Assembly: GCA_028820935.1 (NCBI GenBank)
Contig: JAPPHZ010000001.1
Span: 1 to 42,822 of the forward strand
DNA: 42,822 bases
Direction: 5' to 3'
From: a bacterium
GTDB lineage: Bacteria; Actinomycetota; Acidimicrobiia; Spongiisociales; Spongiisociaceae
Shown here: one piece after another, positions 27,000 to 42,822 of the stretch
Layout of the letters: every line of letters begins with the position of its first letter
Position numbering within the stretch: the first letter of the stretch is position 1
Position numbers and translations under genes: made by a program
The notes under the pieces: model-generated
The model's input: only the letters and a program-made list of their open reading frames with translations
Told to the model about the DNA's origin: nothing
The model's database searches: none

Positions 27000-29900
27000 C
27001 TACATGTTCCGGCGGTACTGGCCGCCCACGGCGTATAACGCGTGCGTCATCTGGCCGAGGCTGCACACCTTTGCCGCCGCCATGAGGGCGTCGAACGTGT
27101 TGCCGCCCGATAGTGCGACTCGCTGTAGCTCGTCGAGGAGTTCCGCTGCCTGTTTCTCGTTGCGATGGTGGAGCTGGTCCATCTCGGCCACGAGTTGGTC
27201 TCGTTCCTCGGCTGCGGATCGGATGATCTCCTTCGGCCGTACGAAGGGCGATCCATCGTCCGAGAGAAACGTGTTGACGCCGACGATGGGGAGATCGCCC
27301 GATGACTTGAGCCGCTCGTAGTGGAGCGACTCCTCCTGGATCTTGCTCCGTTGGTACTGAGTCTCCATCGCTCCGAGGACGCCGCCTCGCTCGCTGATGC
27401 GGTCGAACTCCATCAACACCGCTTCCTCGACGAGGTCGGTGAGCTCCTCGACCACGAAGGACCCTTGAAGCGGGTTCTCGTTCCGGTTGAGGCCCAGTTC
27501 CTCGTTGATGATGAGCTGTATGGCCAGCGCCCGCCGGACCGACTCTTCGGTCGGGGTCGTTATCGCCTCGTCGTAGGCGTTGGTATGGAGCGAGTTCGCA
27601 CTGTCGTAGATCGCGTACAACGCCTGGAGCGTCGTCCGGATGTCGTTGAACCCGATCTCCTGGGCGTGGAGGGAGCGCCCGGAGGTCTGGATGTGGTATT
27701 TGAGCATCTGCGAGCGATCCGAAGCCCCGTAGCGGTCGCGCAGAGCCTTCGACCAGATCCGCCGCGCCACCCGGCCGATGACGGCGTACTCGGCGTCTAC
27801 ACCGTTGGAGAAGAAGAAGGAGAGGTTGTGGGCGAAGGCATCGACGGCCATGCCTCTCGCCAGGAAGTACTCGATGAACGTGAACCCGTTCGCGAGCGTG
27901 AACGCCAGCTGGCTGATGGGGTTGGCCCCCGCCTCCGCCATGTGATACCCGCTGATCGAAATGGAGTAGAAGTTCCGTACGGCGTTGTCGATGAAGAACT
28001 GCTGGATGTCGCCCTGCATGCGGAGGGCGAACTCGGTCGAGAAGATGCAGGTGTTCTGAGCCTGATCCTCCTTGAGGATGTCGGCCTGCAGGGTGCCCCG
28101 AACCCTCCCGAGCACGTCGCGCCGGATCTCGGCGTAGACGTCCTCCGGCACGACCTCGTCCCCCGAGATGCCGAGGAGCCGGGTGCCGAAGCCGGTGTTG
28201 CCCTCCGGCAAGTCGGCCCGATAGACCGGGCGAGCCACTCCACGGTTCTCGTACCGATCGTTGAGTTTGGCTTCGACGACCTCCCAGAGCCGGTGCTCGT
28301 CGATGTACCGCTCGCATTGCTGGTCGATCGCGGCGTTCAGGAAGAAGGCGAGGATCATGGGGGCCGGGCCGTTGATGGTCATCGACACCGAAGTGCTGTT
28401 GTCCAGCAGGTCGAAACCCGAGTAGAGCCGTTTCGCGTCGTCCAGCGATGCGAGCGAAACGCCGCTGTTGCCGACCTTGCCGTAGATGTCCGGCCGCTCA
28501 TCCGGGTTCTCGCCGTACAGCGTCACCGAGTCGAAGGCCGTGGACAGGCGGACTGCCGGCATCCCTCGTGACAGGTAGTGGAACCGTCGGTTGGTCTGCT
28601 CGGGACCGCCCTCGCCGGCGAACATGCGGGTCGGCCGTTCGGTCGTGCTGCGGAACGGGAAGACACCACCGGTGTAGGGAAACGATCCGGGCACGTTCTC
28701 CTGGAGCACCCATCGGACGCGGTCGCCCCAGCCGCGCATCCTGGGGAACGCGACCTTGGGCACCCGCGTCCCCGACAGGGTCGTGGTGGCTGCCTCCACC
28801 GTGACGACGCGGTTCCGCACGGAATACGACACCTCTTCGGTCTGGTATCGCTCCCTCGTCGCGTCCCACTCGTCCAAGGCCCGCATCGTCTCGGCGCCGA
28901 GGCCGGCCCGGAGCGAGTCGATCTCTTCCGAGAGGTCCAGGCCGGTGCGATCGGCGGCGGCGATGAGCCCCTGGAGCTCCTGGGCCAGGTCCGCCTGCCG
29001 TTCCACGTCGGCGTTGTACTCACGGATCGTCTCGGCGATCTCGGAGAGGTAACGGACCCGGTTCGCCGGGATGATGCGCCCCCCGTCGGTCCCGTCGACC
29101 CGAAGCTCGCGATGGGGGCGGAACTCGAGGGACGACCGCCCGTCGATCTCGGCCATCAGGGCGTGGAAGAAGCGGTTCGTACCCGGATCGTTGAAAAGCG
29201 AAGCCGACGTGAGGTACACGGGCACGTCATCGTCCGGGCGGTCGAAGTCGACCCGGTTGCGACGCCACTGCTTCTTGACATCGCGCAGCGCGTCGAGGGC
29301 CCCGCGCCGATCGGACTTGTTGATCGCCACGAGGTCGGCGAAGTCGAGCATGTCGATCTTCTCGAGTTGCGAAGGCGCCCCGTACTCGGGCGTCATCACG
29401 TAGACGCTCAGGTCCGAGTGGTCGACGATCTGGGTGTCCGACTGCCCGATGCCCGACGTCTCGAGGATCACCAGGTCGAAGCCCGCCGCTTTGACGATGT
29501 TCACGGCGGCCGAGACGTGGGGGGACAGCGCCAGATGCGCCTGACGGGTTGCGAGGGATCGCATGAAGACGCGCGGCTGGTGCACCGAGTTCATGCGGAT
29601 CCGATCGCCCAACAGAGCACCGCCCGACCGTCGGCGAGATGGGTCGGTCGAGATGATCGCGATCGATCTGTCCTCACGATCGGAAACGAATCGCAGGACG
29701 ATCTCGTCGATGAGCGACGACTTCCCGGATCCGCCCGTACCGGTGATCCCGACGACGAGGGACGAGGATTCGGCCGCGGCCGACGCGACGGATTCGAGGA
29801 GCGCAGCGTGCGTCTCGGGCGCGTTCTCCGCCGCCGAGATGAGCCGGGCCACAGCGCGCCTGTTCGTCACCGACAGGTCGGCGAGACCGACATTTACCTC

Positions 29901-30332
29901 GACCCCGCGGGGGGCATCCGCCCGCACGATCAGATCGTCGATCATCCCCTGCAGGCCCAACTCCCTGCCTTCGTCAGGACCGTAGATCCGCTCGACTCCC
30001 AGAGCCCGGAGGCTCTCCGCCTCCTCGGGGAGGATGGTGCCCCCTCCCCCGCCGAATATCTTCACGTCGGTGGCCCCGACCTCGTCGAGCAGCGAGCGCA
30101 GATAGCGGAAGAACTCGAGGTGGCCTCCCTGGTAGGAGGTGACGGCGACGGCTTGCGCGTCTTCTTGAACGGCTGCCTCGACGAGCTCCCGGACCGGCCG
30201 GTTGTGACCGAGGTGTATCACCTCCACGCCGGCCGCCTGGAGGATGCGTCGCATGATGTTGATCGCCGCGTCGTGACCGTCGAAAAGGGAGGTCGCCGTC
30301 ACGACACGCAGGTGATGACTTGGTCCCGGCAT
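27000..30332 (-). CDS. icmF: Fused B12-dependent isobutyryl-CoA mutase (IcmF)
   Basis: Interconverts isobutyryl-CoA and butyryl-CoA (or a related branched acyl-CoA) with adenosylcobalamin. Seen over 1110 residues, the fused IcmF layout: a B12-binding domain with [14 protein letters not shown] (cobalt-ligand His20); a MeaI-type G domain with Walker [10 protein letters not shown] near residue 200 and the NKSD base-recognition motif; and, after a linker, the mutase barrel from about residue 545 ([20 protein letters not shown], with [17 protein letters not shown]). GTG 30344 is the alternative start. It diverges from the marR/acyl-CoA dehydrogenase pair across a 32-bp gap, so it is probably under the same control. 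Isovaleryl/pivalyl-CoA specificity cannot be excluded. Confidence 0.95.
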
Positions 30333-30359
30333 TGGCTTCCGCACTATTATGTGAGATTA

Positions 30360-30952: not shown

Positions 30953-32116
30953 TTGATCGAGTTCGCGCTTACCCCTGAGCAGGAGATCCTGAGGGCGTCA
31001 ACGGCGAGGCTCGCCGACGAGGTCTACGCCGCCAAGGCGGAAGCCTGGGATCGGGACCGCACGTTCATGCCTGACGAGGAACGAAAGCGGCTCGGAGACC
31101 TGGGACTGCTCGGAATCGGCCTCCCCGGCGCCTACGGCGGGGGCGACGGAACCCTGCTCGACTCGCTCATCGTGATCGAGGAGCTGGCAAAGCGCAACCA
31201 GATCGCGGCCTTTCAAGCGTTCGAGTCGAACACCGGTCCGGCCCGGGCCATCGCCATGCTCGGCTCTGATGCCCAGAAGGAGAGGTTCCTGCCGCCGGTG
31301 ATCCGGGGCTCCGCCACCATGGCCATCTCGATCTCGGAGCCGGACGCCGGGTCGGCGGCAACGGACCTCACGACATCGGCTGTCCGCGACGGAGCCGATG
31401 TCGTCATCAACGGCATGAAGCGATGGTGTTCGGGCGGCGGGCACGCCGAGCTGTATCTCGTGTACGTCAGGATGAACGAGCAGCTCGGCTCGAAGGGCAT
31501 CGGCGCCGTGGTCGTCGAGGCCGGTACCAGCGGCCTCACCTTCGGCCCGCAAGAGGACCTGATGGGCTTTCGGGGTATCCCGTCGGCCGACATGTTCTTC
31601 GAGGACGTGAGGGTCCCGGCGGAGAACGTGATAGTGCCTGCCGGGAGATTCCGTGACCTGTTCACCGCCTTTTCCATCGAGCGTCTCGGCAACGCGACGA
31701 TGTCGCTGGCCATCGGCCAGGCGTGCCTCGACCTCACGGCCAAGTATGTGGAGGAGCGTCAACAGTTCGGGAAGGACATCGTCGAGTTCCAGGCGGTTCA
31801 GCTGGCTCTGGCGGACATGGTCCTGAAGACCCAGGCGGCACGGCGTCTCATATGGACCGCGGCTGCCGGCGCGGGGACCGGAGCGCCCGATCCGCTGGAT
31901 GCTTCGATCGCGAAGTGCTACTCCAACGAGATGGCCAAGGAGGTCTCGGATCTAGCCATCCAGCTCCACGGTGGGTACGGCTACTCGGTGGAGTACGGCC
32001 TGGAGCGCTATCACCGTGATGCGCACGGGTGGGCGCTGGGAGGCGGCACGCCGACGATCCAGCGGATACGCATCGTGTCACAGTATCTCGGCCGCAGGTT
32101 CAAGCAGCGAGGCTGA
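30953..32116 (+). CDS. Acyl-CoA dehydrogenase
   Basis: FAD enzyme that makes the 2-enoyl-CoA, 387 residues. Seen: LTPEQEILRASTARLADEVY at the start, the FAD/substrate signature ISISEPDAGSAATDL, the FEDVRVPAENVI block, the QFGKDIVEFQAVQLALADM block and the C-terminal QLHGGYGYSVEYGLERYHRDA. Where short- and medium-chain enzymes have the catalytic Glu in xEGT, this protein has G364-G365-T366. Glu243 is present in the ERLG segment, the place used by isovaleryl- and long-chain enzymes. A branched- or long-chain substrate is therefore more likely. TTG start after AGGTG. Probably cotranscribed with marR. Confidence 0.93.
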   Translation: MIEFALTPEQEILRASTARLADEVYAAKAEAWDRDRTFMPDEERKRLGDLGLLGIGLPGAYGGGDGTLLDSLIVIEELAKRNQIAAFQAFESNTGPARAIAMLGSDAQKERFLPPVIRGSATMAISISEPDAGSAATDLTTSAVRDGADVVINGMKRWCSGGGHAELYLVYVRMNEQLGSKGIGAVVVEAGTSGLTFGPQEDLMGFRGIPSADMFFEDVRVPAENVIVPAGRFRDLFTAFSIERLGNATMSLAIGQACLDLTAKYVEERQQFGKDIVEFQAVQLALADMVLKTQAARRLIWTAAAGAGTGAPDPLDASIAKCYSNEMAKEVSDLAIQLHGGYGYSVEYGLERYHRDAHGWALGGGTPTIQRIRIVSQYLGRRFKQRG

Positions 32117-32139: not shown

Positions 32140-33324
32140 TCAGGGTGCCCCGATCACCATCACGCAGGCGATGACGCCCGGACCGCCGAGGGTGTGCGCC
32201 AGTCCCTTCGTGGCGCCGTCGACCTGGCGAGCTCCGGCTCGACCGGTCACCTGGTCGGCGATCTCGACAACCATGCGCACACCGGTCGCGCCGACCGGGT
32301 GGCCGCACGCCTGGAGGCCTCCGGACACGTTGACGGGGATCTCGCCGTCATGGGCCGTCGCTCCCGACCGGAGCAGCTCGACCCCCTTGCCTCGCTCGGC
32401 CAGCCCGAGGTCTTCGGTGTTGACGATCTCGGTGATCGTGAAGCAGTCGTGGCACTCGACCAGGTCGAGCTCGGACCTCGGATCGATGATGCCTGCCTGA
32501 CGGTACGCCCGCGCGGCCGCTTCGCGGGTCGATGCGAAGCCGAGGTAGTCGCCCGACTCCTCGAAGAAGCTCGACACGTAGCCACCGGTCACGGATAGGC
32601 CGACCCCGTCGATCAACGCATAGTCCGATGCGTTCGCGTCCGCCCATTCACGCGACGCCAGGACGACCGCAGCCCCGCCGTCGGTCGTCGGGGTGCAGTC
32701 GTAGAGGCCGAGGGGTTCGGCGACGACGGGCGCTTCGAGTACCTGTTCCATCGTGAGCTCCGAGCCGAACTGTGCGCTCGGGTTTGACATCGCGTTGCGG
32801 TGATTCTTCATCGCCACCCGGGCGAGGTCGTCTCTCGTATATCCGTAGGTGTCGAGGTAGCGGTTGGCGAGCAATGCGAACTGACCGGGCGCGGTCCTGC
32901 CCTTGGCCAGTGTCGGGTGGCTGCCCTCGGCGGTCTTGGCGACGAGAGACCCCTTCGGAGTGACGTCGCGCATCTTCTCCGCTCCGATCGCCAGAACGAT
33001 GTCGTGCTCCCCGGCGGCGACGGCGAGGGCTGCGCCGCGCACGGCCTCCATCCCACTCGTGCAGAAGTTCGAGACCCGTGTCACGGGGCGGGGAGAGAAT
33101 CGCAGGGCCTCGGCCACCGCAGCCCCGGAGTCGCCGATGAGCCCCGAAGTCTGAGGCTCGGCCGTCGCCAACCAGGCGGCGTCGATGGCGTCCATGGTGA
33201 GGCCTGCGTCGGTGACGGCGCCATGGGCGGATTCAGCCACGAGGTCGAGGTAACCCATGTCGTGAAGGACACCGAATCTCGTCATGGCCGTGCCGACAAT
33301 GGCCACCTCTCCGGCGATGCCCAT
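32140..33324 (-). CDS. Thiolase-superfamily protein (SCP2/lipid-transfer thiolase type)
   Basis: 394 residues. Seen: the start VAIVGTAMTRFG, an active-site-like Cys in NFCTSGMEAVRGAALAV (near residue 87), HDCFTITE and the C-terminal GHPVGATGVRM block (His of the thiolase site). The NxCTSG form and the SCP2-like ECHDCFTITE place it with the lipid-transfer/SCP2 thiolases, which include the Ltp2-type retro-aldolases of steroid side-chain breakdown as well as thiolases. It shares one base with the stop of the DUF35-fusion gene (TGATG). Acyl-CoA cleavage in the cytoplasm is inferred. Confidence 0.85.
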   Translation of the reverse strand: MGIAGEVAIVGTAMTRFGVLHDMGYLDLVAESAHGAVTDAGLTMDAIDAAWLATAEPQTSGLIGDSGAAVAEALRFSPRPVTRVSNFCTSGMEAVRGAALAVAAGEHDIVLAIGAEKMRDVTPKGSLVAKTAEGSHPTLAKGRTAPGQFALLANRYLDTYGYTRDDLARVAMKNHRNAMSNPSAQFGSELTMEQVLEAPVVAEPLGLYDCTPTTDGGAAVVLASREWADANASDYALIDGVGLSVTGGYVSSFFEESGDYLGFASTREAAARAYRQAGIIDPRSELDLVECHDCFTITEIVNTEDLGLAERGKGVELLRSGATAHDGEIPVNVSGGLQACGHPVGATGVRMVVEIADQVTGRAGARQVDGATKGLAHTLGGPGVIACVMVIGAP

Positions 33325-34577
33325 CAGGCCGCCCCTGCCGGTGCAGCCTGGATCTTCCAGAAGTAGTTGGGCACATTCCCCCCGCCGTGCAGCCTGCGCA
33401 GAACCAGTTCCACCCGGTCTCCGATCTCGACTTCGAGCCGGTCGGCAACCTGGCCGTAGAAGCGGCCGCCGCCGTCGAGGTCGACGACCGCCATGGAGAG
33501 CGGGCCGCCGAACGGGAACACGTGGTCCCGAGCGAAGGTCACCACGGTGCCGGTGCGGGCAAGGTGGTACGGCTCGAACCCGGCGCTCGACGCAGCGGGC
33601 GGCGGTGGGTAGACGACCTCCCCGGTCTCGGTGTTCCTCGCTGCGAGCAGGCGAAACGTCTGGCTTCGCTCCCGGTAGGCCATCGCCTGGGATGAGTACG
33701 GGGTGAACGTGGACTCGTCGGGATCGGCCGGACGCTCTCCGCGCAGCCCGCCCGCGATCTCATCGGCAGCCTGCTCTCTGATGCCGGAGAACCGGGATCC
33801 GACCGTTATCCGGACGGCGTGTCTGATACCTCCGGACGACGAGGCGACCACCAGATCCCGGCCCTCGGTGGCGTCACTCGTGAAGAGGCCGATCAACGGT
33901 GCGGCGCATCCCGGAAATCCTGCGCCTTCGATCTGCGGACCGGAGGCGGTCGAGAGAAGGACGCGGTCGGCGTCGAGCCGGTCGGCGAAGCCCTTGGCGG
34001 GTGAATAACGATCGAGAGACCTGTCACCGGCCTGAACTCCCGGTGTGTCGCGACGCTGCCAGCGATCCAGGAACAACTCGGCACCGCTCTCTGCCGGGGT
34101 GACACCGCCCACATCTCCGACCGAGTCGATCAAAAGGGCGACTGCTGCCGCCCCTAGAGGCCTGCCTCTGGTATCCCGGCGGTCGTCGGAGACCACGACG
34201 AGCACCGGCCCGCGGCCGTCGGCTACGCGCCGCGCCGCTTCGGCGATCGCGGCGACACCGGCAGAGACCGACCCGGTCAGCTCCAACACGTCGGGCCCGG
34301 GACGATCCGCAGCGGACCGGATGTCCAGCACCTCGGCAAGAAAGGGGGCGATACCGGGCTCCGGGAGCGGGGCCGACACGGTTGCTGCCAGCAAACCGTT
34401 CGGAGTGACGTCCGGGTTCCTGTCCAGCATCGCCAGGCCGCACCTGGCAGCCATCGTGACGGCGTCCTCGTCGTGTGCGGCCCGGGAGACCGTCCCCCGG
34501 CCAGTCCTGCTACGCCACCGGCCCAGCGAGACCTGCGCATCGACGATGAAGGCGCTCGCCGTCGCTTTCTGATCCAT
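33324..34577 (-). CDS. HMG-CoA-synthase-like domain fused to a DUF35 OB-fold, both degenerate
   Basis: 417 residues. N-terminal part (1-270): thiolase-fold, HMG-CoA-synthase-like (DVTPNGLLAATVSAP, VLVVVSDDRR, DRVLLSTASGPQIEG). The segment that should carry the nucleophilic Cys (LELTGSVSAGVAAI) has none. C-terminal part (about 285-417): DUF35-type OB fold (ARTGTVVTFARDH, GPLSMAVVDLDGGGRFYGQV), but the Cys4 rubredoxin-like zinc finger before it is gone (RLLAARNTETGEVVYPPPP). Known: DUF35 proteins pair with thiolases or Ltp2-type aldolases. Inferred: a non-catalytic partner that holds or channels acyl-CoA for the thiolase encoded next to it. Confidence 0.75.
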   Translation of the reverse strand: MDQKATASAFIVDAQVSLGRWRSRTGRGTVSRAAHDEDAVTMAARCGLAMLDRNPDVTPNGLLAATVSAPLPEPGIAPFLAEVLDIRSAADRPGPDVLELTGSVSAGVAAIAEAARRVADGRGPVLVVVSDDRRDTRGRPLGAAAVALLIDSVGDVGGVTPAESGAELFLDRWQRRDTPGVQAGDRSLDRYSPAKGFADRLDADRVLLSTASGPQIEGAGFPGCAAPLIGLFTSDATEGRDLVVASSSGGIRHAVRITVGSRFSGIREQAADEIAGGLRGERPADPDESTFTPYSSQAMAYRERSQTFRLLAARNTETGEVVYPPPPAASSAGFEPYHLARTGTVVTFARDHVFPFGGPLSMAVVDLDGGGRFYGQVADRLEVEIGDRVELVLRRLHGGGNVPNYFWKIQAAPAGAA

Positions 34578-34651: not shown

Positions 34652-35080
34652 CTACGGTCCGGTGCGCTCCGGTCGGCCCTTGACCTGACGGGCTACGTCC
34701 AGCGAGTCGTACCAGACGCTCAACGACTTGATCTTTCCGTCGGAGATGTCGAACACGTCCACCGCGGAGAAGGCCACGGGGCGTCCGCCCACCGTCCGGC
34801 CGTCAAAGTCGATCTCAACCACCACGCTGCTCCCCGATGCCAGGAACCGAGTGGGTCGGTCGGTTCCTTCGACAAAACCGGCCAGCAGGGTCTCGAAGTA
34901 GTCCACCGCGGCATCCACGCCCTCGAGGCGTCCCCTGCCGACGACCTGCAGCGATAGATGTGGATGGAGGATCTCTCGGAGCGCCGGCCAATCTCGAGAG
35001 TTGATCGACGCGAAGTACTGCTGGACGATGGTTTGCGGTGAAGTTGGAACGTCCACGGCCTTCTCGGGAGAGCCCCTCAA
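34652..35080 (-). CDS. SnoaL-like/NTF2-fold protein
   Basis: 142 residues. Seen: IVQQYFASINSRDWPALREI, HLSLQVVGRGRLEGVDAAVDYFETLL and the C-terminal strand block FSAVDVFDISDGKIKSLSVW, the typical cone-shaped alpha+beta fold. The family includes ketosteroid isomerase-, epoxide hydrolase- and cyclase-like enzymes and also binders without activity. The catalytic residues cannot be assigned. It lies between the thiolase/DUF35 pair and the flavoenzyme gene on the same strand (71- and 80-bp gaps). The true start may be GTG 35056. Confidence 0.8.
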   Translation of the reverse strand: MRGSPEKAVDVPTSPQTIVQQYFASINSRDWPALREILHPHLSLQVVGRGRLEGVDAAVDYFETLLAGFVEGTDRPTRFLASGSSVVVEIDFDGRTVGGRPVAFSAVDVFDISDGKIKSLSVWYDSLDVARQVKGRPERTGP

Positions 35081-35160: not shown

Positions 35161-37110
35161 TCAGGTCAAGGCTCTGAGGGAGTCGTTTCCCTCGGCGATC
35201 GCCGGCCCGATCCCTCTCGGAGCCCGAGCGTCGCCGATGACGACGAAGGGCACCTCTAGCTGATCGAGCCAGCTCGGCCGGACTGAGCGCGCCGGATCGG
35301 CGATCACAACCCCGCCGCAGGGAATGAAGATCTCGCCGTCCTCGGCCGAAGCCACCAATCCGGACTCGTCAAGGCGCCGTGGGATCGCCAGAACGACCGA
35401 TCCGCCGGCCGATTCGATGCGGCTGAGATACGCCCGCCTGGCCAACCCGCTGGTGTCGTTGCCGGCACGCGTACCGGTTACGACGACGACAGGATTTCCC
35501 TTGTGGATCAGCCACAACGATGTTGCCAGAGCTCGGCGACCCCCACCGAGGACCACGACCTCTCCTAAGGGTTCCGGCGTTCCCAGAGTCGACTCCCCGG
35601 CAGCCAGCAAGCCCTCGGCGGACCAGACGGGCATGCGGTCGTATCCGTCGAGTACCGGCACCTCGGTGACACTTCCCGTGGCGGCGACCACGAAGTCCGG
35701 GTCGAGATCACCCACCGAAGCCGCCGTGGCCTCGAATTGGAGTCTCACATCGACATCGAGGTGCTCCATCTCGAGGAAGAACCAATCCGCAAGACGCTGC
35801 ACATGGCGCAGTGGCGGCGTCCGGGCGGCCAACCTGAGGCTGCCCCCGATCGTATCGGCCCGGTCGACGATGACGACTTCATGGCCCTCGAAGGCGCCCT
35901 TCCGAGCCGCTTCGAGGCCGGCCGGGCCGGCGCCGATCACCACGAGTCGGCGTGGCGCGGCGCGGGCAGGCAGGAGGGTCGGCCGGAGCTCTCTCCCGGC
36001 ATCGGGGTTCACCGAGCACGAGATGGGGTCACCGTGCTGGAGCATTCCGGCACATCCCTCCACCGTTCCGATACAGGGCCTGATCCGGGCAGGCTCCCCA
36101 CTTCTCGCCTTGGTCGCCCAGGCGGGATCGGCCAGAAGCGCCCGGCCGACGGCGACCGCATCACAACGGCCCGAGGCCAGCGCCATCTCGGCGGTTGAGG
36201 GATCGGTGATGCGCCCGACGGCCACGACGGGAATGCTCACGCCGGCGCGCACCTGCGACGCGAGGTCTACGAACGTGCCCTCGGGATCGTCGAGCAACGG
36301 AATGGTGTAGGGAACGGAACCGTAGACGCCCGCGGACACGACCAACCCGTCGGCTCCGGCGGCCGCAAAGGACCTGGCCGCCACGACGGCGTCGGCGATC
36401 TCGAGACCGCCGGGCACGAAGTCGGCCCCGTTGAGGCGAACCATCACGGCGAGTTCGGGCACGGCTTCCTTGATCGCACGGACGATGTCGACGCCGAAGC
36501 GAGTTCTCGCGGCGACGGTTTCACCGCCGTACACGTCGCTGCGGTGGTTCGATCCGGCGGACATGAACTGATGGATGAGGTAACCGTGCGCGGCGTGCAC
36601 CTCGACGGCCACAAACCCGGCAGTCCACGCCTTCCGGGCCGCGGTGGCGAACGCGGTGACCAGGTCCTCGACCTCGCTGATCTCCAAGGACCGCGGTTGC
36701 CGGCTGACGTGGACGAGCGGCGCTATGGCGGACGGGGCCACGGGGTCGCCGCCTATCACCTTCGGGCTCACCTGACGGCCGCCATGGCCGAGCTGGAGGC
36801 AGGGCGCAGCGCCGTTGGCCGCTATGGCATCGGCCAGCGGGGCCAGAGCTCGAGCCGCGCCGTCGAGCCACATCCACGGAATCTGTTGCTCGACCCGACC
36901 CTCCGGCGCAACCGCCCCGAAGGCCACCACCGCCATCCCCACATCGTGGGTGCGAGCTGCGAAATACTCGATCAGGTGCTCGGTGGGAAGCCCGGCCCGG
37001 AACCCGAATCCGGTCGTCATCGGCGACAGCAATATCCGGTTCGAGAGCTCGAGCGGTCCGAGGCGCCAGGACGAGAAGAGGGTTGGATACGAGTTCCGAG
37101 CTGCCTTCAC
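35161..37110 (-). CDS. OYE-type flavoenzyme, 2,4-dienoyl-CoA reductase/TMADH-like, with an altered Fe-S motif
   Basis: 649 residues in three parts. (1) FMN TIM barrel with the family block HGYLIHQFMSAGSNHRSDVY near residues 175-194. (2) An iron-sulfur segment that should be C-x2-C-x3-C-x11-C but reads PCIGTVEGCAG...ISCSVNP: the second Cys is Thr349 (codon 36064-36066), so only three ligands remain. (3) FAD/NAD(P) domain with VIGAGPAGLEAAR near residue 393. It resembles E. coli FadH and trimethylamine dehydrogenase. GTG 37110 was chosen because it precedes the usual YPTLF start; the frame is open to TTG 37158. It may reduce an enoyl compound with NAD(P)H. Confidence 0.85.
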   Translation of the reverse strand: MKAARNSYPTLFSSWRLGPLELSNRILLSPMTTGFGFRAGLPTEHLIEYFAARTHDVGMAVVAFGAVAPEGRVEQQIPWMWLDGAARALAPLADAIAANGAAPCLQLGHGGRQVSPKVIGGDPVAPSAIAPLVHVSRQPRSLEISEVEDLVTAFATAARKAWTAGFVAVEVHAAHGYLIHQFMSAGSNHRSDVYGGETVAARTRFGVDIVRAIKEAVPELAVMVRLNGADFVPGGLEIADAVVAARSFAAAGADGLVVSAGVYGSVPYTIPLLDDPEGTFVDLASQVRAGVSIPVVAVGRITDPSTAEMALASGRCDAVAVGRALLADPAWATKARSGEPARIRPCIGTVEGCAGMLQHGDPISCSVNPDAGRELRPTLLPARAAPRRLVVIGAGPAGLEAARKGAFEGHEVVIVDRADTIGGSLRLAARTPPLRHVQRLADWFFLEMEHLDVDVRLQFEATAASVGDLDPDFVVAATGSVTEVPVLDGYDRMPVWSAEGLLAAGESTLGTPEPLGEVVVLGGGRRALATSLWLIHKGNPVVVVTGTRAGNDTSGLARRAYLSRIESAGGSVVLAIPRRLDESGLVASAEDGEIFIPCGGVVIADPARSVRPSWLDQLEVPFVVIGDARAPRGIGPAIAEGNDSLRALT

Positions 37111-37156
37111 CGGCGCGAGTGTACGGACCAGGGCTGGAAGGCGGGAGGTACGGTCC

Positions 37157-37267
37157 AAGAGGTGCCCAAAGGACGCGGATGGACCTCTACTGGTTGGCCG
37201 CGACGCTTCTACCTGGGGGTTCGATTCCGGCTACCGGGCCAACCGGACGTGTTTCAGTACCCTGCTA
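37157..37267 (+). repeat. Family 2 palindromic element, decayed copy C, forming the leader of the phosphotransferase gene
   Basis: The right part (about 37190-37267) aligns with copy A and the complement of copy B: TTGGCCGCGA, then GGGGGTTCGATTCCGGCTACC, then CGGGCCAACCGGAC, ending TTTCAGTACCCTGCTA (one base off the consensus end). The left terminus is eroded (AAGAGGTGCCC) and there are about 11 extra bases near 37180. It ends 3 bp before the ATG of the phosphotransferase gene, so it is the whole leader. Confidence 0.65.
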
Positions 37268-37270
37268 GCC

Positions 37271-38581
37271 ATGGCCGTCGAGGTCTGGATCGTGCGAGCT
37301 GCCGAAAGGGCACTCGGGCGTTCGCTCCGAGCGGCCCGCGTCGAGCCGATGGCGGGCGGACACTCATGGGATACCTATCTCGTGTCGACCGCCTCAGGTC
37401 CCGAGGCAGTGGTGAGAGTTGCTCCGCGAGGCGGAACGCTCGCTCCCTACGACGTCGAGGTGGAACGGCGAGCGCTCCGGGCTGCCCGTGGGGCGGTGCC
37501 TGCTCCGGACGTGCTGCTCGTCGCCGCTCATCCGTCCCGGTTCGGGGCGCCGCTGCAGGTCCAGACCGTTGCCCCCGGGGAGAGACTGCGCAGCTCGCAG
37601 GAGTTCCCACACCATGAAAGAAAGCGCTATCGAGCAGCGATGGCTGTCGCGCTCGGGGATCTCCATCGTTTGGGTGATCCCTCCCGGCTCTCCGCGGTCA
37701 AGACGACGGGAGAAGCGATTCGATCGATCATCAACGTAGAGGTGGAGCATTACCGCCGGGCCGCGGCCGCGCGACACCCGGGGTTCGAGATCGGCCTTCG
37801 GTGGCTTCTGAGCAACCTCCCGGGAGGCAGCGACGAACCTGTTGTCTGCCACGGTGACTACCGCATCGGCAACATCCTGTGGGATGACGGCGGAGAGATC
37901 AGCGGAGTGCTCGACTGGGAGCGAGCCTGGGCGGGCGACCCGATGTGCGACATCGCATTCACGCGCCAATTCTCCGCCTGGGGAGGAATCGATGGGGAGG
38001 CGGTCGCTCTCTACGAGCGGGCATCGGGGCGAAAGGTCGACGAGTCCCGGATGGCCTTCTACCTCAGGCTCGAGCGCTGGAGGTCCTACACGGCCTCGAT
38101 GCGGGGGATCTCAGCCCTGGCTTCCGGGAAGTCTGATCGCCCCGCGCTGGCGGCTATCGGAGAGGCCGGAAACTCGGGCATGTGGGATCTGGCGAGCTGG
38201 CTCGAGGACGGTCTGGTGCCCCTTCCCCCCGCGCTCGCGAAGCGGCGGAGCCACTACGCGCCGATGCTGAGCACTGCCAGACGTGTCGAGATTGCCCGCC
38301 ACCCCGGTACCGGCGGACCGCTGCGCTCGCACTTGCTCGACGACGGGGAGGAAAGCCGCGCGCTGCGCCGGTCGGTGGATCGATTGCGAGCTATCGGCGG
38401 TATGCCGGCTCTGGCGAAAGCGCTCGACGTGTCAGACGTGGAGGAGGCATGGGAGGCGGCGTTCGAGGTTCTTACCGCGGCGGCTGCTGACGGCGGGCGT
38501 AACCTACAGGCAGCATTGCAAGCGCTGGGGCACCGTTTCACGGGGCGCCCGACCTTTCTCCAGGAGATGGCATGGCGCTGA
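37271..38581 (+). CDS. Aminoglycoside-phosphotransferase-like kinase (APH/ACAD10-like), extra C-terminal domain
   Basis: 436 residues. Seen: a kinase-like fold with VEPMAGGHSWDTYLV (ATP-binding start), the catalytic loop HGDYRIGN (194-201, Asp196 and Asn201) and the metal Asp in GVLDWERAWAGDP (Asp215). A further 150 residues at the C-terminus (from about 285) are helical and unrecognised. APH-like kinases in acyl-CoA catabolic clusters often phosphorylate hydroxyl groups of the substrate (as ACAD10/11 do with hydroxyacyl-CoA), which fits this island. It overlaps the next gene by 10 bases. ATG 37271 was chosen; the frame is open much further upstream, into the opposite gene. Confidence 0.85.
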   Translation: MAVEVWIVRAAERALGRSLRAARVEPMAGGHSWDTYLVSTASGPEAVVRVAPRGGTLAPYDVEVERRALRAARGAVPAPDVLLVAAHPSRFGAPLQVQTVAPGERLRSSQEFPHHERKRYRAAMAVALGDLHRLGDPSRLSAVKTTGEAIRSIINVEVEHYRRAAAARHPGFEIGLRWLLSNLPGGSDEPVVCHGDYRIGNILWDDGGEISGVLDWERAWAGDPMCDIAFTRQFSAWGGIDGEAVALYERASGRKVDESRMAFYLRLERWRSYTASMRGISALASGKSDRPALAAIGEAGNSGMWDLASWLEDGLVPLPPALAKRRSHYAPMLSTARRVEIARHPGTGGPLRSHLLDDGEESRALRRSVDRLRAIGGMPALAKALDVSDVEEAWEAAFEVLTAAAADGGRNLQAALQALGHRFTGRPTFLQEMAWR

Positions 38582-39579
38582 AGGAACGAGATGAATACCT
38601 CCACGCCCCTCCTGCCGACGCCCCGGACACGCACCTCTGGAGCGACAACTTCTGGTTTTCTGTCGTCGATCGCGAGGCAGACGTCTTCGGCATCAACCAC
38701 ATCCATGCCTCGCTGAGTCACGGCTACTTGCGAGCGAGCGCCTTCTACGTCATCGACGGCGTCCACCAGCAATGGGCCTCACGTCAACCGCTCGGGGTCG
38801 ATCCGGTGTTCGAGACGATCGGCGATCAGCGGCTTACGTTTCGAGTCGACAAGCCTTTCGAGCAGTACCGCTGGGTTTTCGACGGCCCAAAGTTCGGATT
38901 CGATCTCACCTATCGCAGCCGTTTCGCGGTCTTCGACTACGACGACTGTCTGGGCGGCAATCCGCTGGCCGCCTACGAGGACTACGGAGGCCACTACGAG
39001 CAGGCGCTCTCCTGCCAGGGCTCCTTCGAAGCCTTCGGTGGTCCCCGCAAGGGCGAACGACGGGCCATCGATTCGTGGGCCCACCGCGATCACTCCTGGA
39101 CCCATCGATTCGTGCGCTCCAGCTCCTGGGAGCCGCGCAAGCATCGAACGCTACAACGATCTCTCGGTCACTTCTGGCCGTCGATCCAGCTCGAGAACCG
39201 TCACCTCAATGCGTTCGGCTGGATGAATCCGGACCGGCAGCTGCCCGAGGGCGCCAACCCGGTGGGAGGATGGATAGGCGACGCCGACGGGTCTCGACCG
39301 ATCGTCGGCGCCTCATGCGTGCCGCGTCTCGAAGACGATCGCCGCACGGCTATGTCGTTCGACATCCGGTTCGATCTCGGCGACGAGCAACTCACCGTTG
39401 TGACGGGCCGAAAGCACGCCCAGACCCGCAACGGTCTGATGCGCGATGAGAACGACGCAGAGGCGCGCCTGGACTGTTACGAGCCCTTCTTCGACTTCGA
39501 GGTCCTCGAAACCGGAGAGCGCGGCTACGGCGTCGTCGAGTACTCCATCAACCCGCCCACGCCCCGATTCCGCTACTAG
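38572..39579 (+). CDS. Lipocalin/CrtC-like two-domain protein (DUF7064/DUF7065 type)
   Basis: 335 residues with no signal peptide or membrane helix. Seen: THLWSDNFWFSVVDREADVF near the start, many beta strands, RAIDSWAHRDHSWTHRF in the middle (His/Asp/Trp-rich, likely in the cavity), AFGWMNPDRQLPEG, and a C-terminal YGVVEYSIN. The layout of two beta-barrel lipocalin-like domains recalls carotenoid hydratase (CrtC) and AttH proteins, and I connect it with the DUF7064/7065 families with moderate certainty. Translation is coupled to the kinase gene (10-base overlap), so the two probably act on the same hydrophobic compound. The reaction is unknown. Confidence 0.65.
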   Translation: MALKERDEYLHAPPADAPDTHLWSDNFWFSVVDREADVFGINHIHASLSHGYLRASAFYVIDGVHQQWASRQPLGVDPVFETIGDQRLTFRVDKPFEQYRWVFDGPKFGFDLTYRSRFAVFDYDDCLGGNPLAAYEDYGGHYEQALSCQGSFEAFGGPRKGERRAIDSWAHRDHSWTHRFVRSSSWEPRKHRTLQRSLGHFWPSIQLENRHLNAFGWMNPDRQLPEGANPVGGWIGDADGSRPIVGASCVPRLEDDRRTAMSFDIRFDLGDEQLTVVTGRKHAQTRNGLMRDENDAEARLDCYEPFFDFEVLETGERGYGVVEYSINPPTPRFRY

Positions 39580-39781
39580 GCCTGATCCTTCGTGTTTCCC
39601 GACACACCGGCCGCATCCAGCCACGTCAACGGCGTATTTGCGGCTTCGCCGTCCTTCACCCGGTGGGTGCCAAGCACCACCTGTCAGGGATGGGACCGTC
39701 GGAGACCATCATTCGTGTTCAGGTCGCCCTTCTCCGACTCAATCCATCCTGACAAACCGCGCGCATGAAGGATTGGGGCTA

Positions 39782-40822
39782 ATGCGCGCCGCCTTCCTCG
39801 ACGGAGCGGAGGACATCGCAGTTCGCGAGGTACCGCCCATCCCAGCCGAAGGCCACCTCGTCGAGATCGACGTGATCGCTTGCGGGATCTGCGGTTCTGA
39901 CCTTCACCGATGGCGCCGTCCGGACTTGATGGCCGGGCAGATCGAACCATCGATCCCCGGCATGGCGGGACACGAAGTCGTCGCCCGGGTGCCGCGAACC
40001 GATGGCGGGCGCGGCCGGCGAGTCGTCGTCGAGCCGAACCTCGCTGGGAATTGCGGGAAGTGTGGGGCGTGTCTGGAAGGCAAGGCGGTGTTCTGCACCA
40101 ACCGCACGGCTCTCCGGTCATGGGGGTTCTCAGAGCGGATGGCAGTCAACGCCTCGAGCTTGTTCGACGTTCCGGACGGCATGGCCGACGATCTGGCGAG
40201 CCTCACGGAGCCGCTTGCGTGCGCAGTTCACGCCTACCGGGCAAGCCATACATTCGCCGCACAGGACGGGACACTGGCCGGTCGCAGGATCGCGGTGATC
40301 GGAGGGGGCGCGATCGGACTGCTGGCGATCGCCGCTGCTACTCGCCTCGGCGCCGACGCCCTGCTCTGTGTGGCCCGTTACCCCCGGCAGGCTGCGGCGG
40401 CCGAGACCCTCGGGGCGATCGAGGTGTTGGATCCCGTTGTCGACGATGTGGCCTCCCGAATACGCAAGTTCGCGCCCGATGTCGTGGTCGAGGCAGTCGG
40501 GGGCGGGCCGGAGACCTTTGATCTCGCGGTTCGAACTGTGAATCCGGGCGGTGAGGTGCTGGTGCTGGGACTGTTCGACGATCCGACATACCTTGACACG
40601 CGCCGGGCCTTGTTTCGCGAACTGCGCCTGCTCTTCTCGATGACCTACGGGGTCATCGACGGCCGCCACGACTTCGAGGTCGCCCTCGAGTTCCTCGAGT
40701 CGGATCCGGCTGCTTTCGGCGGTCTCGTGTCACACCGATTTCCTCTCGAGGAGACGGCTGACGCGTTCGCCGCGGCAGCGGACAAGTCGACGGGGGCTCT
40801 GCGGATCGTGGTAGCGCCTTGA
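39782..40822 (+). CDS. Zinc-dependent medium-chain alcohol dehydrogenase
   Basis: 346 residues. Seen: catalytic-zinc residues CGICGSDLH (Cys37) and GHE (63-65), structural-zinc Cys91, 94, 97 and 105 in CGKCGACLEGKAVFC, and the NAD-binding motif VIGGGAIGLLAIAAA near residue 175. It resembles sorbitol/threonine dehydrogenases. Substrate unknown; an alcohol of the catabolised compound is likely. It is the first gene of the four-gene operon with the LLM oxidoreductase and two VOC proteins (TTGA overlap with the next). The 202 bp upstream hold no gene that I can support. Confidence 0.92.
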   Translation: MRAAFLDGAEDIAVREVPPIPAEGHLVEIDVIACGICGSDLHRWRRPDLMAGQIEPSIPGMAGHEVVARVPRTDGGRGRRVVVEPNLAGNCGKCGACLEGKAVFCTNRTALRSWGFSERMAVNASSLFDVPDGMADDLASLTEPLACAVHAYRASHTFAAQDGTLAGRRIAVIGGGAIGLLAIAAATRLGADALLCVARYPRQAAAAETLGAIEVLDPVVDDVASRIRKFAPDVVVEAVGGGPETFDLAVRTVNPGGEVLVLGLFDDPTYLDTRRALFRELRLLFSMTYGVIDGRHDFEVALEFLESDPAAFGGLVSHRFPLEETADAFAAAADKSTGALRIVVAP

Positions 40823-41730
40823 GGTTCGGACTGCACCTCCCCCAGCTCGGCAGAGCGGCTTCGCCCGAGAGGGTGGGGGCCGCAGCCGTTGTCGCCGAGG
40901 ACCTCGGCTTTGCTGACGTGTGGGCGTCGGATCACGTAGCGGTCCCGACATCGATCGAGGGCATGCCCTCGTTCTTTCCGGAGCCGATCCCGCTGTTGGC
41001 GCTCGCCGCGGCTCACACGCGGCGGGTCGGCCTTGGAACCAGCGTCATCGTCCCCGCCTACCGGAACCCGATGCACTTCGCCAAGCAGTGGGCGACGTTG
41101 GATTGGCTGGCGCCCGGACGCACGATTCTGGGGGTCGGAGCCGGATGGCTGACCGAGGAGTTTGCCGCCGTCGGTGTTCCGATGCAGGGCCGCGGCGCGC
41201 GACTCGACGATTACATCCGTGGGTGGAGGGCCCTCTGGGCGGGAGCCACGGAATTCGAGAGCAGATACTTCTCGTTCGAGGCAGTCAGAGTGAATCCACG
41301 GCCGTCCGAGGCGATCCCCGTCTGGATAGGTGGTTCATCAGCGGGTGCGTTGCGTCGAGCTGCTTGGTGTGACGGCTGGCACGGCACCTGGGCGCCGCTC
41401 GACGAGTTTAAGCGAAGGGTCGTGATGCTCCTCGCCGAGATGGAGAGGATCGAGCGCGATCGTGAGGAGGTCACCGTGTCGATCCACATGGAGGTCACCA
41501 TCGGTGACGGTCTCGACTACTCGGGTTGGTCGTCCGTCGGCGACGGCTACGGTGATCGGCGACCGGTGACCGGGCGTCCGGAGGATGTCGCAGAACTTCT
41601 GGCCGACTACGCGGAAGCCGGGCTCGACCATGTCCTTGTCACACCGGTGGTTCGCGGCGCAAGAGCCTGGGACGAGATGGTCCTCGGCATCGCCGCCCTC
41701 AAGGATCTCGTCGAGAAGGGCGCGCATTGA
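40819..41730 (+). CDS. LLM-class F420-dependent oxidoreductase
   Basis: 303 residues, a luciferase-like (beta/alpha)8 barrel. Seen: RFGLHLPQLGRAASPERVGA, AEDLGFADVWASDHVAVP, TRRVGLGTSVIVPAYRNP, ILGVGAGWLTEEFAAVGVP, IPVWIGGSS and a C-terminal GLDHVLVTP. This pattern is that of the F420-dependent TIGR03619-type subfamily. It may oxidise or monooxygenate an alcohol, ketone or heterocycle. TTG start overlapping the dehydrogenase stop (TTGA) shows coupling. The cofactor (F420 rather than FMN) is inferred from family. Confidence 0.9.
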   Translation: MRFGLHLPQLGRAASPERVGAAAVVAEDLGFADVWASDHVAVPTSIEGMPSFFPEPIPLLALAAAHTRRVGLGTSVIVPAYRNPMHFAKQWATLDWLAPGRTILGVGAGWLTEEFAAVGVPMQGRGARLDDYIRGWRALWAGATEFESRYFSFEAVRVNPRPSEAIPVWIGGSSAGALRRAAWCDGWHGTWAPLDEFKRRVVMLLAEMERIERDREEVTVSIHMEVTIGDGLDYSGWSSVGDGYGDRRPVTGRPEDVAELLADYAEAGLDHVLVTPVVRGARAWDEMVLGIAALKDLVEKGAH

Positions 41731-42188
41731 GCATCGAGTTCTCGCAGATGCACCACTTCGGGATCGTCGTACCTGATCTCGATGGTGCGATGAACGAACT
41801 CACCAGCCAGCTGGCTCTCACGTGGGCGCCGATCCGGCACGGCGAACGCACCGTGCGCCACCTCGGCCGGCTGGTGACGACCGACCTCCGACTCACCTAC
41901 TCGATTGAAGGGCCTCCCCATCTGGAGTTGATCGGAGAGGCCCGGGGCACGCCGTGGGAACCGACCGGAGGAGGTATACACCACGCCGGGTTCTGGGTTC
42001 AGGACCTGCGCGGCACCGGCCTCGAACTGGCCCGGGCAGGGATGACGCTCGAAGCCACCTATGACGCCGAGGATGGCGGGTTGCTCGGCTTTGCATACTT
42101 CACCGACGCGAACGGCTTCCGGGTCGAGATCCTCGATGACTCTCGCCGGCAGTCGTTCGATGACTGGCTCGCTGGCGGGCCGCGTTAG
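41727..42188 (+). CDS. VOC-superfamily (glyoxalase/dioxygenase-like) protein, first copy
   Basis: 153 residues with two betaalphabeta units. Seen: HHFGIVVPDLDGAM (His10), GPPHLELIGEA (Glu in HLE), GGIHHAGFWVQDL (His near residue 85) and GFRVEILDDS (Glu near the end): the His, Glu, His, Glu pattern for one metal. The reaction (ring cleavage, isomerase or epimerase) cannot be told. It is coupled to the LLM gene (TTG overlap). Clearly similar to the next gene, with shared GPPHLELI and C-terminal W-x-AGG. Confidence 0.88.
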   Translation: MSIEFSQMHHFGIVVPDLDGAMNELTSQLALTWAPIRHGERTVRHLGRLVTTDLRLTYSIEGPPHLELIGEARGTPWEPTGGGIHHAGFWVQDLRGTGLELARAGMTLEATYDAEDGGLLGFAYFTDANGFRVEILDDSRRQSFDDWLAGGPR

Positions 42189-42252
42189 ACCGGATACGGC
42201 AACTGCGCGGCGGCGACCATCTGTACGATCTACTTGCACGAGGAGGCCGATC

Positions 42253-42717
42253 ATGTCGATCGACATCGCGGGTATCAGCCATACCGCGCTCGCGGTCGCC
42301 GACCTCGACACGGCGATGAGCGTGTACGGGAGCGCACTCGGCCTGACATGGGCACGCCCCCAGCAACGAGCGATCAGCATCCGGGTCGCGGACGGTGACC
42401 TGACGACGGAGATCCGGTTCACGTACTCCCGGCAAGGTCCTCCCCACCTCGAGCTCATCGAGGGCGCCGCCGACACGATCTGGGCGCCGGTGAGCGGCCT
42501 CCATCACATCGGACTGTGGAGCCACCAGCTCGATATCGACGCCGCGCGGCTGGAGCATCGAGGGATGGCTCTCGAGGCGGCGGGCCTCAGCAGATCAGGC
42601 AAGCAACCCTCCGGATTCACCTACCACCGTTCGGCACAAGGGCTGAGGGTCGAACTGGTGGATGCGGCGGCGCGGGCCGCCTTCGAACGCTGGTTCGCGG
42701 GAGGGGACCTTCGCTGA
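42253..42717 (+). CDS. VOC-superfamily protein, second copy
   Basis: 154 residues, paralogue of the previous protein. Seen: ISHTALAVADLDTAMSV (His10), GPPHLELIEGA, GLHHIGLWSHQLD and LRVELVDAA, keeping the His-Glu-His-Glu set. It has a strong ribosome site, AGGAGG at 42241-42246, 6 bases before ATG, unlike the coupled starts of its neighbours, so it can be translated independently. Arose by tandem duplication; the two may form a heterodimer or act on successive intermediates (inference). Confidence 0.9.
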   Translation: MSIDIAGISHTALAVADLDTAMSVYGSALGLTWARPQQRAISIRVADGDLTTEIRFTYSRQGPPHLELIEGAADTIWAPVSGLHHIGLWSHQLDIDAARLEHRGMALEAAGLSRSGKQPSGFTYHRSAQGLRVELVDAAARAAFERWFAGGDLR

Positions 42718-42769
42718 CGGCGGCGACATCCGGCGGGTTCGGTTCGAGTCTTCGCCGCCGGAGTGGACT

Positions 42770-42822
42770 AGTGGTCTGTCTGTGTAATGGCGGTGTGGTA
42801 TGGCGAGGCAGCGGTGTTCCTC
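42770..42822 (+). repeat. Family 1 palindromic element, left part (cut by window edge)
   Basis: Starts AGTGGTCTGTCTGTG directly after a T (giving the TA tip) and continues with GCGTGG-type and GGCAGCGGTGTTCCTC segments, matching the left half of the copy at 12073 (up to about 12125) in the same orientation. It follows the VOC operon by 52 bp and lies downstream of it. Confidence 0.82.

Follow-up and report, generated by a model that had tools for sequence, protein, structure and literature searches.

The locus studied here raises the question of whether a small-molecule kinase and a CrtC-like β-barrel protein, encoded by overlapping genes at the head of a six-gene block, act together in a conserved catabolic pathway, and by what chemistry. 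The window analyzed is a stretch of 42,822 nucleotides from an Acidimicrobiia genome (Spongiisociaceae; contig JAPPHZ010000001.1). Judging from comparisons of sequence, predicted structure and gene neighborhood, the core of the module is probably a two-protein ATP-dependent dehydratase, consisting of the kinase and a CrtC/AttH-fold phospho-lyase, each with a predicted activity, set within a conserved group of catabolic genes.

Gene organization

All six genes of the block (37271–42717) are present, on the plus strand. These genes and the features around them are:

27000–30344, minus strand: IcmF, fused isobutyryl-CoA mutase/GTPase (NF045497, 1645 bits; cut-off 1500)
30953–32116, plus strand: ordinary acyl-CoA dehydrogenase (best PDB match 5ol2, E 1e-67)
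32140–33324, minus strand: thiolase of the PRK06157 type (NF004810, 406 bits; cut-off 403)
33324–34577, minus strand: protein with a C-terminal OB fold (ChsH2_C/DUF35 type, PF01796) and an N-terminal half weakly resembling HMG-CoA synthase (TIGR01835, E 1e-5, below cut-off)
34652–35080, minus strand: SnoaL-like/ketosteroid-isomerase-like protein (PF12680), its position kept only within the genus
35161–37158, minus strand: OYE/2,4-dienoyl-CoA-reductase-type ene-reductase (PF00724; PDB 1ps9, E 3e-63), divergent from the kinase gene
37271–38581, plus strand: APH-fold small-molecule kinase (ACAD10/11-N / Rv3168 / 25-hydroxysteroid kinase group; PF01636, E 4e-34), proposed to phosphorylate a substrate hydroxyl
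38572–39579, plus strand: CrtC/AttH-fold protein, divergent DUF7065+DUF7064 (Rv3169) type, proposed phospho-lyase; the start lies inside the kinase gene
39580–39781, no strand: insertion of 202 bp unique to this genome, which interrupts the operon and has imperfect inverted repeats at its ends
39782–40822, plus strand: Zn-dependent medium-chain alcohol dehydrogenase (PF00107/PF08240)
40819–41730, plus strand: LLM-class F420-type oxidoreductase (TIGR03619, 203 bits; cut-off 166.9)
41727–42188, plus strand: VOC1, VOC-superfamily protein (PF13669, Glyoxalase_4)
42253–42717, plus strand: VOC2, VOC-superfamily protein (PF13669; PDB 6xbr, E 0.004)

The original prediction described the six genes as tightly packed. 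The 10-base overlap of the kinase and CrtC/AttH-fold genes and the TTGA overlaps of the Zn-dehydrogenase with the LLM gene and of the LLM gene with VOC1 are all correct on re-reading, but the packing is interrupted by the 202-bp gap before the Zn-dehydrogenase gene and by a 64-bp gap before VOC2. The insertion is absent from four related loci (L030, L032, L033 and L034), where the stop of the CrtC/AttH-fold gene and the start of the Zn-dehydrogenase gene overlap, and no second full copy of it was found in the genome. VOC2 is ∼38–40% identical to VOC1 and is weakly methylmalonyl-CoA-epimerase-like. The contig ends shortly past VOC2, and C6, a second contig of this genome, carries the continuation of the island. 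The operon runs on beyond the contig end: in relatives it continues with a third VOC gene, and within this genome it continues on C6.

Conservation of the gene neighborhood

Relatives of the CrtC/AttH-fold gene were found at 36 loci. In most of those from Acidimicrobiia the gene adjoins an LLM gene, its most constant neighbor there; the upstream kinase is also present in 14 Acidimicrobiia loci, nearly all of which carry the OYE gene. The adjacent OYE genes of other Acidimicrobiia (53–58% identity) make this enzyme part of the conserved module. The same families, in a different gene order, occur at six Binatota/“Deltaproteobacteria” loci. A kinase gene lies on the same strand as the lyase-like gene, adjacent to it or within two genes, at 20 of the 35 loci examined (records from Acidimicrobiia and Binatota/Deltaproteobacteria), while 14 full-length marine-type loci have the lyase-like and LLM genes with no kinase nearby. 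Across the wider DUF7064 set, a kinase is encoded within 12 kb at 6 of 40 loci, and is the next gene in all six. Zn-dehydrogenase homologues are present in two further loci (L041 and L062) and in the Binatota clusters. In six loci from Acidimicrobiia, the VOC gene is followed by genes for an IpdAB-like CoA-transferase pair, and uptake genes lie near the module in relatives. Outside this genus, IcmF is not a neighbor of the module.

The six genes are chromosomal Acidimicrobiia genes, and a chance grouping is ruled out because the set, as directly observed, is kept in many genomes. The prediction that they form a conserved catabolic module, which a genome-neighborhood search was to check, is borne out: the OYE, acyl-CoA dehydrogenase, kinase, CrtC/AttH-fold, Zn-dehydrogenase and VOC families form a recurrent set in two phyla, joined in Acidimicrobiia by the LLM family.

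The kinase

The catalytic motifs of the kinase are intact (HGDYRIGN for HxDxxxxN and DWERAW for DxE), and the key residues are invariant in its relatives. The “unknown C-terminal domain” originally attached to the kinase is a poorly conserved and poorly predicted region, absent from the Binatota kinases. Against helical tails found in other kinases, including one that looks like the small protein of Lva-type operons, this tail scored an hhalign probability of 0.1%, indicating that it is unrelated to them. In the fold comparison, 25-hydroxysteroid kinase (25-HSK) and Rv3168 share first place (Z 22.9 each), together with 3dxp; 25-HSK has the highest identity to the kinase among the fold matches listed (24%).

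Sequence profiles rank 3dxp, 9o56, ACAD11 and Rv3168 above 25-HSK, with an E-value of 1.7e-26 for the ACAD11 kinase domain versus 3e-18 for 25-HSK. This ranking favors a route of the LvaA/ACAD11 type, in which the kinase would phosphorylate a 4-hydroxyacyl-CoA, a protein with the acyl-CoA dehydrogenase fold would eliminate the phosphate, and the CrtC/AttH-fold protein would be an unrelated hydratase or binding protein. LvaA/LvaC and ACAD10/11 are established examples of such chemistry (PMC11342911, PMC12440821), and the cluster in the window includes one acyl-CoA dehydrogenase gene. However, the encoded dehydrogenase resembles the ordinary butyryl-CoA type, and ACAD11 is absent from its best 60 PDB matches; it reaches no NCBIfam equivalog cut-off and lies outside the curated families. 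Moreover, the kinase gene overlaps the CrtC/AttH-fold gene, not the dehydrogenase gene, and this pairing is kept across lineages. We consider the LvaA/ACAD11 route unlikely.

The CrtC/AttH-fold protein

The AlphaFold model of the second protein (pLDDT 79, pTM 0.83) predicts a two-domain CrtC/AttH β-barrel, so that its earlier description as CrtC-like was right as to fold. Hydratases and Diels-Alderases also use this fold. The window protein scores below the cut-offs of both DUF7064 (16.5 of 24.7 bits) and the Rv3169 family (31 of 150 bits). Among 29 relatives, 26 hit DUF7064 with E-values no higher than 0.1, the best being 1.3e-5. By these sequence scores it is a divergent relative of the DUF7065/DUF7064 (Rv3169) family, not a formal member. 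An Rv3169-family search of 14 control genomes gave a match in one, Caulobacter vibrioides. A literature search for DUF7064/DUF7065 found no functional paper.

The best match of the model, both in the fold search and with Foldseek, is 25-phosphosteroid lyase (25-PSL) of Sterolibacterium (Z 23.6, rmsd 3.2 over 280 residues), at a structural-alignment identity of about 15%; AttH (Z 20.4) and kievitone hydratase (Z 19.8) come next. 25-PSL is also the only PDB match at E up to 10 (E 4.5e-8) of a wider-family profile, built from nine sequences of which only some are module members, with distant DUF7064-type sequences added. No PDB match came from sequence searches that used just the protein itself or just the module family. 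The relationship extends to the active site, where RDHSW, a motif invariant in the family, lines up with the RDRSW sequence of 25-PSL, placing the invariant Asp173 opposite the 25-PSL Asp. The crystal of 25-PSL with product and phosphate (9g4c) has Asn at this aligned position, and Asp173 therefore falls on the residue changed in the product complex. His141 and Glu143, also invariant in the family, are replaced by Arg and Ala at the aligned positions of 25-PSL; since these other pocket positions are not matched, we claim neither orthology to 25-PSL nor the same substrate.

The closeness of kievitone hydratase and AttH in fold, together with the 14 loci that pair the lyase-like and LLM genes in the absence of a nearby kinase, would agree with a hydratase of the CrtC or kievitone-hydratase type, adding water to an alkene, with some other intermediate of the pathway as the substrate of the kinase. 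We regard this as quite unlikely, as 25-PSL stands at least 3 Z units above these proteins and is the only PDB protein matched by the sequence profile, and the pairing with a kinase is seen in several lineages. The APH Pfam domain notwithstanding, it is extremely improbable that the kinase is an antibiotic-resistance phosphotransferase with unrelated neighbors, given that no NCBIfam equivalog cut-off for aminoglycoside or macrolide phosphotransferases is reached (best model 58.6 of 205 bits) and that the catabolic neighborhood is conserved.

Proposed mechanism

In the favored dehydratase mechanism, for which we infer both reactions and their order, the kinase would use ATP to phosphorylate a hydroxyl group on a substrate that is hydrophobic and probably cyclic. 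Elimination of the phosphate by the CrtC/AttH-fold protein would then yield an alkene, in the manner of the 25-HSK/25-PSL system of Sterolibacterium denitrificans. The roles of the other enzymes are conjectural. The OYE and the F420-type LLM enzyme may reduce the resulting double bond, or an enone formed by oxidation by the Zn-dehydrogenase, and the VOC proteins could isomerise or epimerise an intermediate. Opening and shortening of the skeleton would fall to the thiolases and the IpdAB-like CoA-transferase-type pair, the latter probably acting in ring opening.

Comparison with known systems

The original statement that no described pathway holds this set does not stand for the kinase/lipocalin pair, because the pair resembles 25-HSK and 25-PSL of oxygen-independent cholesterol side-chain degradation. 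The same two folds are combined, with the active-site Asp conserved, and the precedent for hydroxyl removal by a kinase and a phospho-lyase comes from that system (PMC8449060, PMC7411048); the chemistry predicted here would likewise consume ATP to strip an unactivated hydroxyl. 25-HSK was described in 2021, with its lyase then unknown, and the 25-PSL structures were released in the PDB only in January 2026. The two genes overlap here, whereas the 2021 paper found no candidate for the lyase in the vicinity of the 25-HSK gene. The present pair also differs in its low identity to 25-HSK/25-PSL, at His141/Glu143, in its context of OYE, F420-type LLM, VOC and IpdAB-like genes, and in the phyla that carry it.

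In the Rv3168-Rv3169 operon of M. tuberculosis, described in the accessible text of PMC5340868 as a single operon repressed by Rv3167c, a similar kinase fold also stands beside an Rv3169-family protein. The window protein, however, is under the cut-off of that family, and the accessible text describes no catabolic neighbors of the operon. LvaA/LvaC and ACAD10/ACAD11 likewise rely on an APH-type kinase to convert a hydroxyl into a leaving group by phosphorylation, but their lyase has the acyl-CoA-dehydrogenase fold, whereas the coupled partner here has the CrtC/AttH fold.

Candidate substrates

The proposed funnel to isobutyryl-CoA is not supported: with IcmF next to the module in this genus alone, such a route does not belong to the module as such. 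The alpha subunit of the CoA-transferase pair on the island, the only subunit compared, has as its best PDB match the IpdA entry 6co6 (E 4e-36), so that the pair resembles the IpdAB steroid ring-opening hydrolase. Together with the uptake genes, the IpdAB-like pair in relatives is, at the sequence level, consistent with a cyclic, CoA-activated substrate, although the setting differs from that of IpdAB: searches of this genome with two steroid ring-degradation models, PRK12835 and TIGR03213, aimed at the 3-ketosteroid delta-1-dehydrogenase and ring-cleaving dioxygenase of the classical 9,10-seco pathway and each run without a known steroid degrader as positive control, gave only sub-cut-off homologues. 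The first model, which represents the delta-1-dehydrogenase, also had matches in all 14 control genomes, none above cut-off. A steroid-degradation identity is thus not supported by these two models. A literature search for steroid degradation by sponge Acidimicrobiia found nothing useful.

Implications

These comparisons suggest that the kinase/phospho-lyase dehydration route is more widespread than known. More tentatively, a kinase with a CrtC/AttH-fold phospho-lyase might constitute a general two-gene ATP-dependent dehydratase, found in Acidimicrobiia, Binatota and mycobacteria (Rv3168-Rv3169), that removes hydroxyls of cyclic terpenoids or steroids beyond anaerobic cholesterol degradation; its coupling here to F420-type and OYE reductases would amount to net reductive dehydroxylation. 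At this locus the folds of 25-HSK and 25-PSL are encoded by two overlapping genes, in a different phylum and amid other enzymes. A function open to testing can now be proposed for DUF7064/DUF7065-type proteins as well as for the Rv3168-Rv3169 operon, and the locus is a starting point for asking how hydroxylated cyclic lipids might be broken down by marine-type Acidimicrobiia.

Gene organization of the module

The six genes of the original prediction lie where it had placed them:

37271–38581, kinase
38572–39579, CrtC-like (lyase-like) protein
39782–40822, Zn-dehydrogenase
40819–41730, F420-type oxidoreductase (LLM)
41727–42188, VOC1
42253–42717, VOC2

Their supposed close packing is only partial: the kinase gene shares its last 10 bases with the CrtC-like gene, and the Zn-dehydrogenase/LLM and LLM/VOC1 genes overlap by TTGA, but 64 bp separate VOC1 from VOC2 and 202 bp separate the CrtC-like gene from the Zn-dehydrogenase. 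The 202-bp stretch (39577–39784) is an insertion private to this genome, since in four same-genus loci without it the CrtC-like stop and the Zn-dehydrogenase start overlap as CTGATG. It parts the kinase/lyase pair from the remaining operon, has imperfect inverted ends (TAGGCCTGATCCTTCGTG and CATGAAGGATTGGGGCTA), and apparently carries a CTA duplication. A second full copy was not found in the genome, where contig C30 gave one weak partial match.

A repeat with the end CTAGTGGTCTGTCTG, which looks like a MITE-type element, is present in 41 copies in this genome, against none of the reversed control sequence. The copies often form inverted pairs spaced ~150 bp. Sites of the repeat include 83–97 and 42768–42782 of the window, 40–54 and 774–788 of locus L146, and about 8495–8665 of locus L021; in the relative genome G004, a copy lies between the CrtC-like and Zn-dehydrogenase genes. 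As the repeat is close to both ends of the window's contig and at the start of contig C6, the assembly probably breaks there.

The window ends with its contig. Contig C6 of the same genome begins with a third VOC gene (VOC3); genes for an ABC transporter, an IpdAB-like CoA-transferase pair and a thiolase-like protein, among others, come next, as they do on a long contig of the relative genome G008. G008 also has a ~15 kb segment (contig C34, 36–51 kb; L019, L020) encoding acyl-CoA ligases, a phytoene-desaturase-like oxidase, a second LLM, an acyl-CoA dehydrogenase (ACAD), an SDR, another CoA-transferase pair and an HMGL-like enzyme. It has no counterpart at the equivalent site of the window genome, where transporter genes directly follow VOC3.

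The CrtC-like protein

Among 29 relatives of the CrtC-like protein, 26 weakly match DUF7064 and 14 match DUF7065 (E up to 0.1); its own match to the Rv3169 family is below cut-off. Its AlphaFold model (pLDDT 79, pTM 0.83) has its best fold match in the 25-phosphosteroid lyase (25-PSL) of Sterolibacterium denitrificans, with Z 23.6 across 280 residues; AttH scores 20.4, kievitone hydratase 19.8 and the lipocalin-like Diels-Alderases about 18–19. Since this fold includes hydratases, a pure hydratase role is a possible rival reading. When the profile was widened with distant relatives, 25-PSL was the sole PDB match at E up to 10 (4.5e-8). The RDHSW motif is invariant in the widened alignment, with RDRSW as its counterpart in 25-PSL; the 25-PSL structure with phosphate and product (9g4c) has RNRSW at this site, which we infer to be a deliberate Asp-to-Asn change of a catalytic residue. 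At two other positions invariant in the family, His141 and Glu143, 25-PSL has Arg and Ala, which makes a different substrate or proton route likely.

The kinase

The closest folds to the kinase model (pLDDT 75) are Rv3168 and the 25-hydroxysteroid kinase (25-HSK) of S. denitrificans (both Z 22.9), tied with 3dxp (22.4). Among the fold matches listed, 25-HSK has the highest identity (24%). Sequence comparison places the kinase closer to 3dxp, 9o56, Rv3168 and the kinase domain of ACAD11; it is therefore not claimed as a 25-HSK orthologue. Its tail, originally taken for an unknown C-terminal domain, is not a conserved domain. At L114 4652–6079, in a genome of the same class, a kinase beside a DUF7064 protein has an extended C-terminus that, on visual inspection, looks like the small DUF6285-type protein of Lva-type operons.

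As the kinase belongs to the same broad group, a route of the LvaA/LvaC or ACAD11 type is another possible rival. However, PDB matches mark the sole ACAD of the window's cluster as an ordinary acyl-CoA dehydrogenase, and the gene that tracks the kinase is the CrtC-like one. The catalytic motifs of the kinase are intact, and a role in antibiotic resistance is unlikely.

Distribution and genomic context

The LLM gene is found at 94–99% identity in six other genomes of the genus, five of which also have the CrtC-like gene; three further members searched have neither. Scanning 84,980 genomes for the CrtC-like family gave 36 loci, all from MAGs. Most records bear the title Acidimicrobiia, Acidimicrobiales or simply 'bacterium'; six form a separate group under the names Deltaproteobacteria, Candidatus Binatia or 'bacterium'. 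The loci show four arrangements:

(a) genus: IcmF, MarR, ACAD, thiolase, OB-fold protein, SnoaL, OYE (ene-reductase), kinase, CrtC-like, Zn-dehydrogenase, LLM, three VOC
(b) other Acidimicrobiia: OYE (divergent), kinase, CrtC-like, LLM, VOC; six loci add a CoA-transferase pair (57–72% identity to the G008 pair) and an SDR after VOC; L041 and L062 have OYE, kinase, CrtC-like, Zn-dehydrogenase and LLM, L062 also ACAD
(c) 14 full-length loci: CrtC-like and LLM only
(d) six Binatia/Deltaproteobacteria-type loci: OYE, ACAD, SDR, CrtC-like, kinase, Zn-dehydrogenase, VOC (recognised in three of the six), second CrtC-like, amidohydrolase

The same enzyme families thus occur together in two phyla in differing gene orders. 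IcmF, the thiolase, the OB-fold protein and the SnoaL position are confined to the genus in the sampled loci. In the 14 loci of arrangement (c), which are marine-type Acidimicrobiia loci (L039, L043–L054, L063), the CrtC-like/LLM pair stands alone, with no kinase within the flank examined; genes upstream of the pair in L039 look like purine biosynthesis genes.

In 20 of 35 loci, the lyase-like gene has a same-strand kinase nearby, and a kinase of such type lies within 12 kb in 6 of 40 more distant DUF7064 loci (one adjacent in all six), although these counts are not independent events, as many loci share descent.

Putative function

In Sterolibacterium, 25-HSK phosphorylates the tertiary 25-hydroxyl of sterols and a lyase eliminates phosphate to give an alkene (PMC7411048, PMC8449060, PMC11061730). 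No lyase candidate was noted near the 25-HSK gene in 2021 (PMC8449060), whereas the kinase gene in the window overlaps the lyase-like gene. In the enrichment of 25-HSK from Sterolibacterium, the accompanying bands corresponded to acyl-CoA synthetase, phytoene dehydrogenase and a member of the luciferase family (PMC8449060), families also found in the module gene clusters.

Based on this chemistry, the gene overlap and the pairing across loci, we propose that the kinase and the CrtC-like protein form an ATP-dependent dehydratase. The gene-level findings are direct observations. For the module, we infer the following reactions and order: ATP-dependent dehydration by this pair would be followed by reduction by OYE and the F420-type LLM enzyme (TIGR03619 match above cut-off), while the Zn-dehydrogenase would serve in oxidation, the VOC-type proteins in isomerisation and the CoA-transferase-type pair in ring opening. 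The best PDB match of the alpha subunit of this pair is 6co6 (E 4e-36), an IpdA entry. The original claim that no pathway with this set is described is not supported for the kinase/CrtC-like pair, as the components resemble a known enzyme pair; the coupled cassette with its catabolic setting appears undescribed in the literature searched.

Three features are steroid-like: the resemblance to 25-HSK/25-PSL, the SnoaL-like protein and the IpdAB-like pair. Classical steroid degradation is disfavoured by two steroid marker models (one unspecific, and both used without a steroid-degrading positive control), whose scores in this genome, 97% complete, fell far short of the cut-off. The identity of IcmF was confirmed; the suggested funnel to isobutyryl-CoA, which rests on it, is not supported, the place of IcmF beside the module being genus-specific.

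Rv3168 and Rv3169 of Mycobacterium tuberculosis form one operon under Rv3167c (PMC5340868) and are a pair of the same kind as the window's kinase and CrtC-like protein by fold and family. By analogy, it is a reasonable prediction that Rv3168–Rv3169 may carry out the same chemistry.
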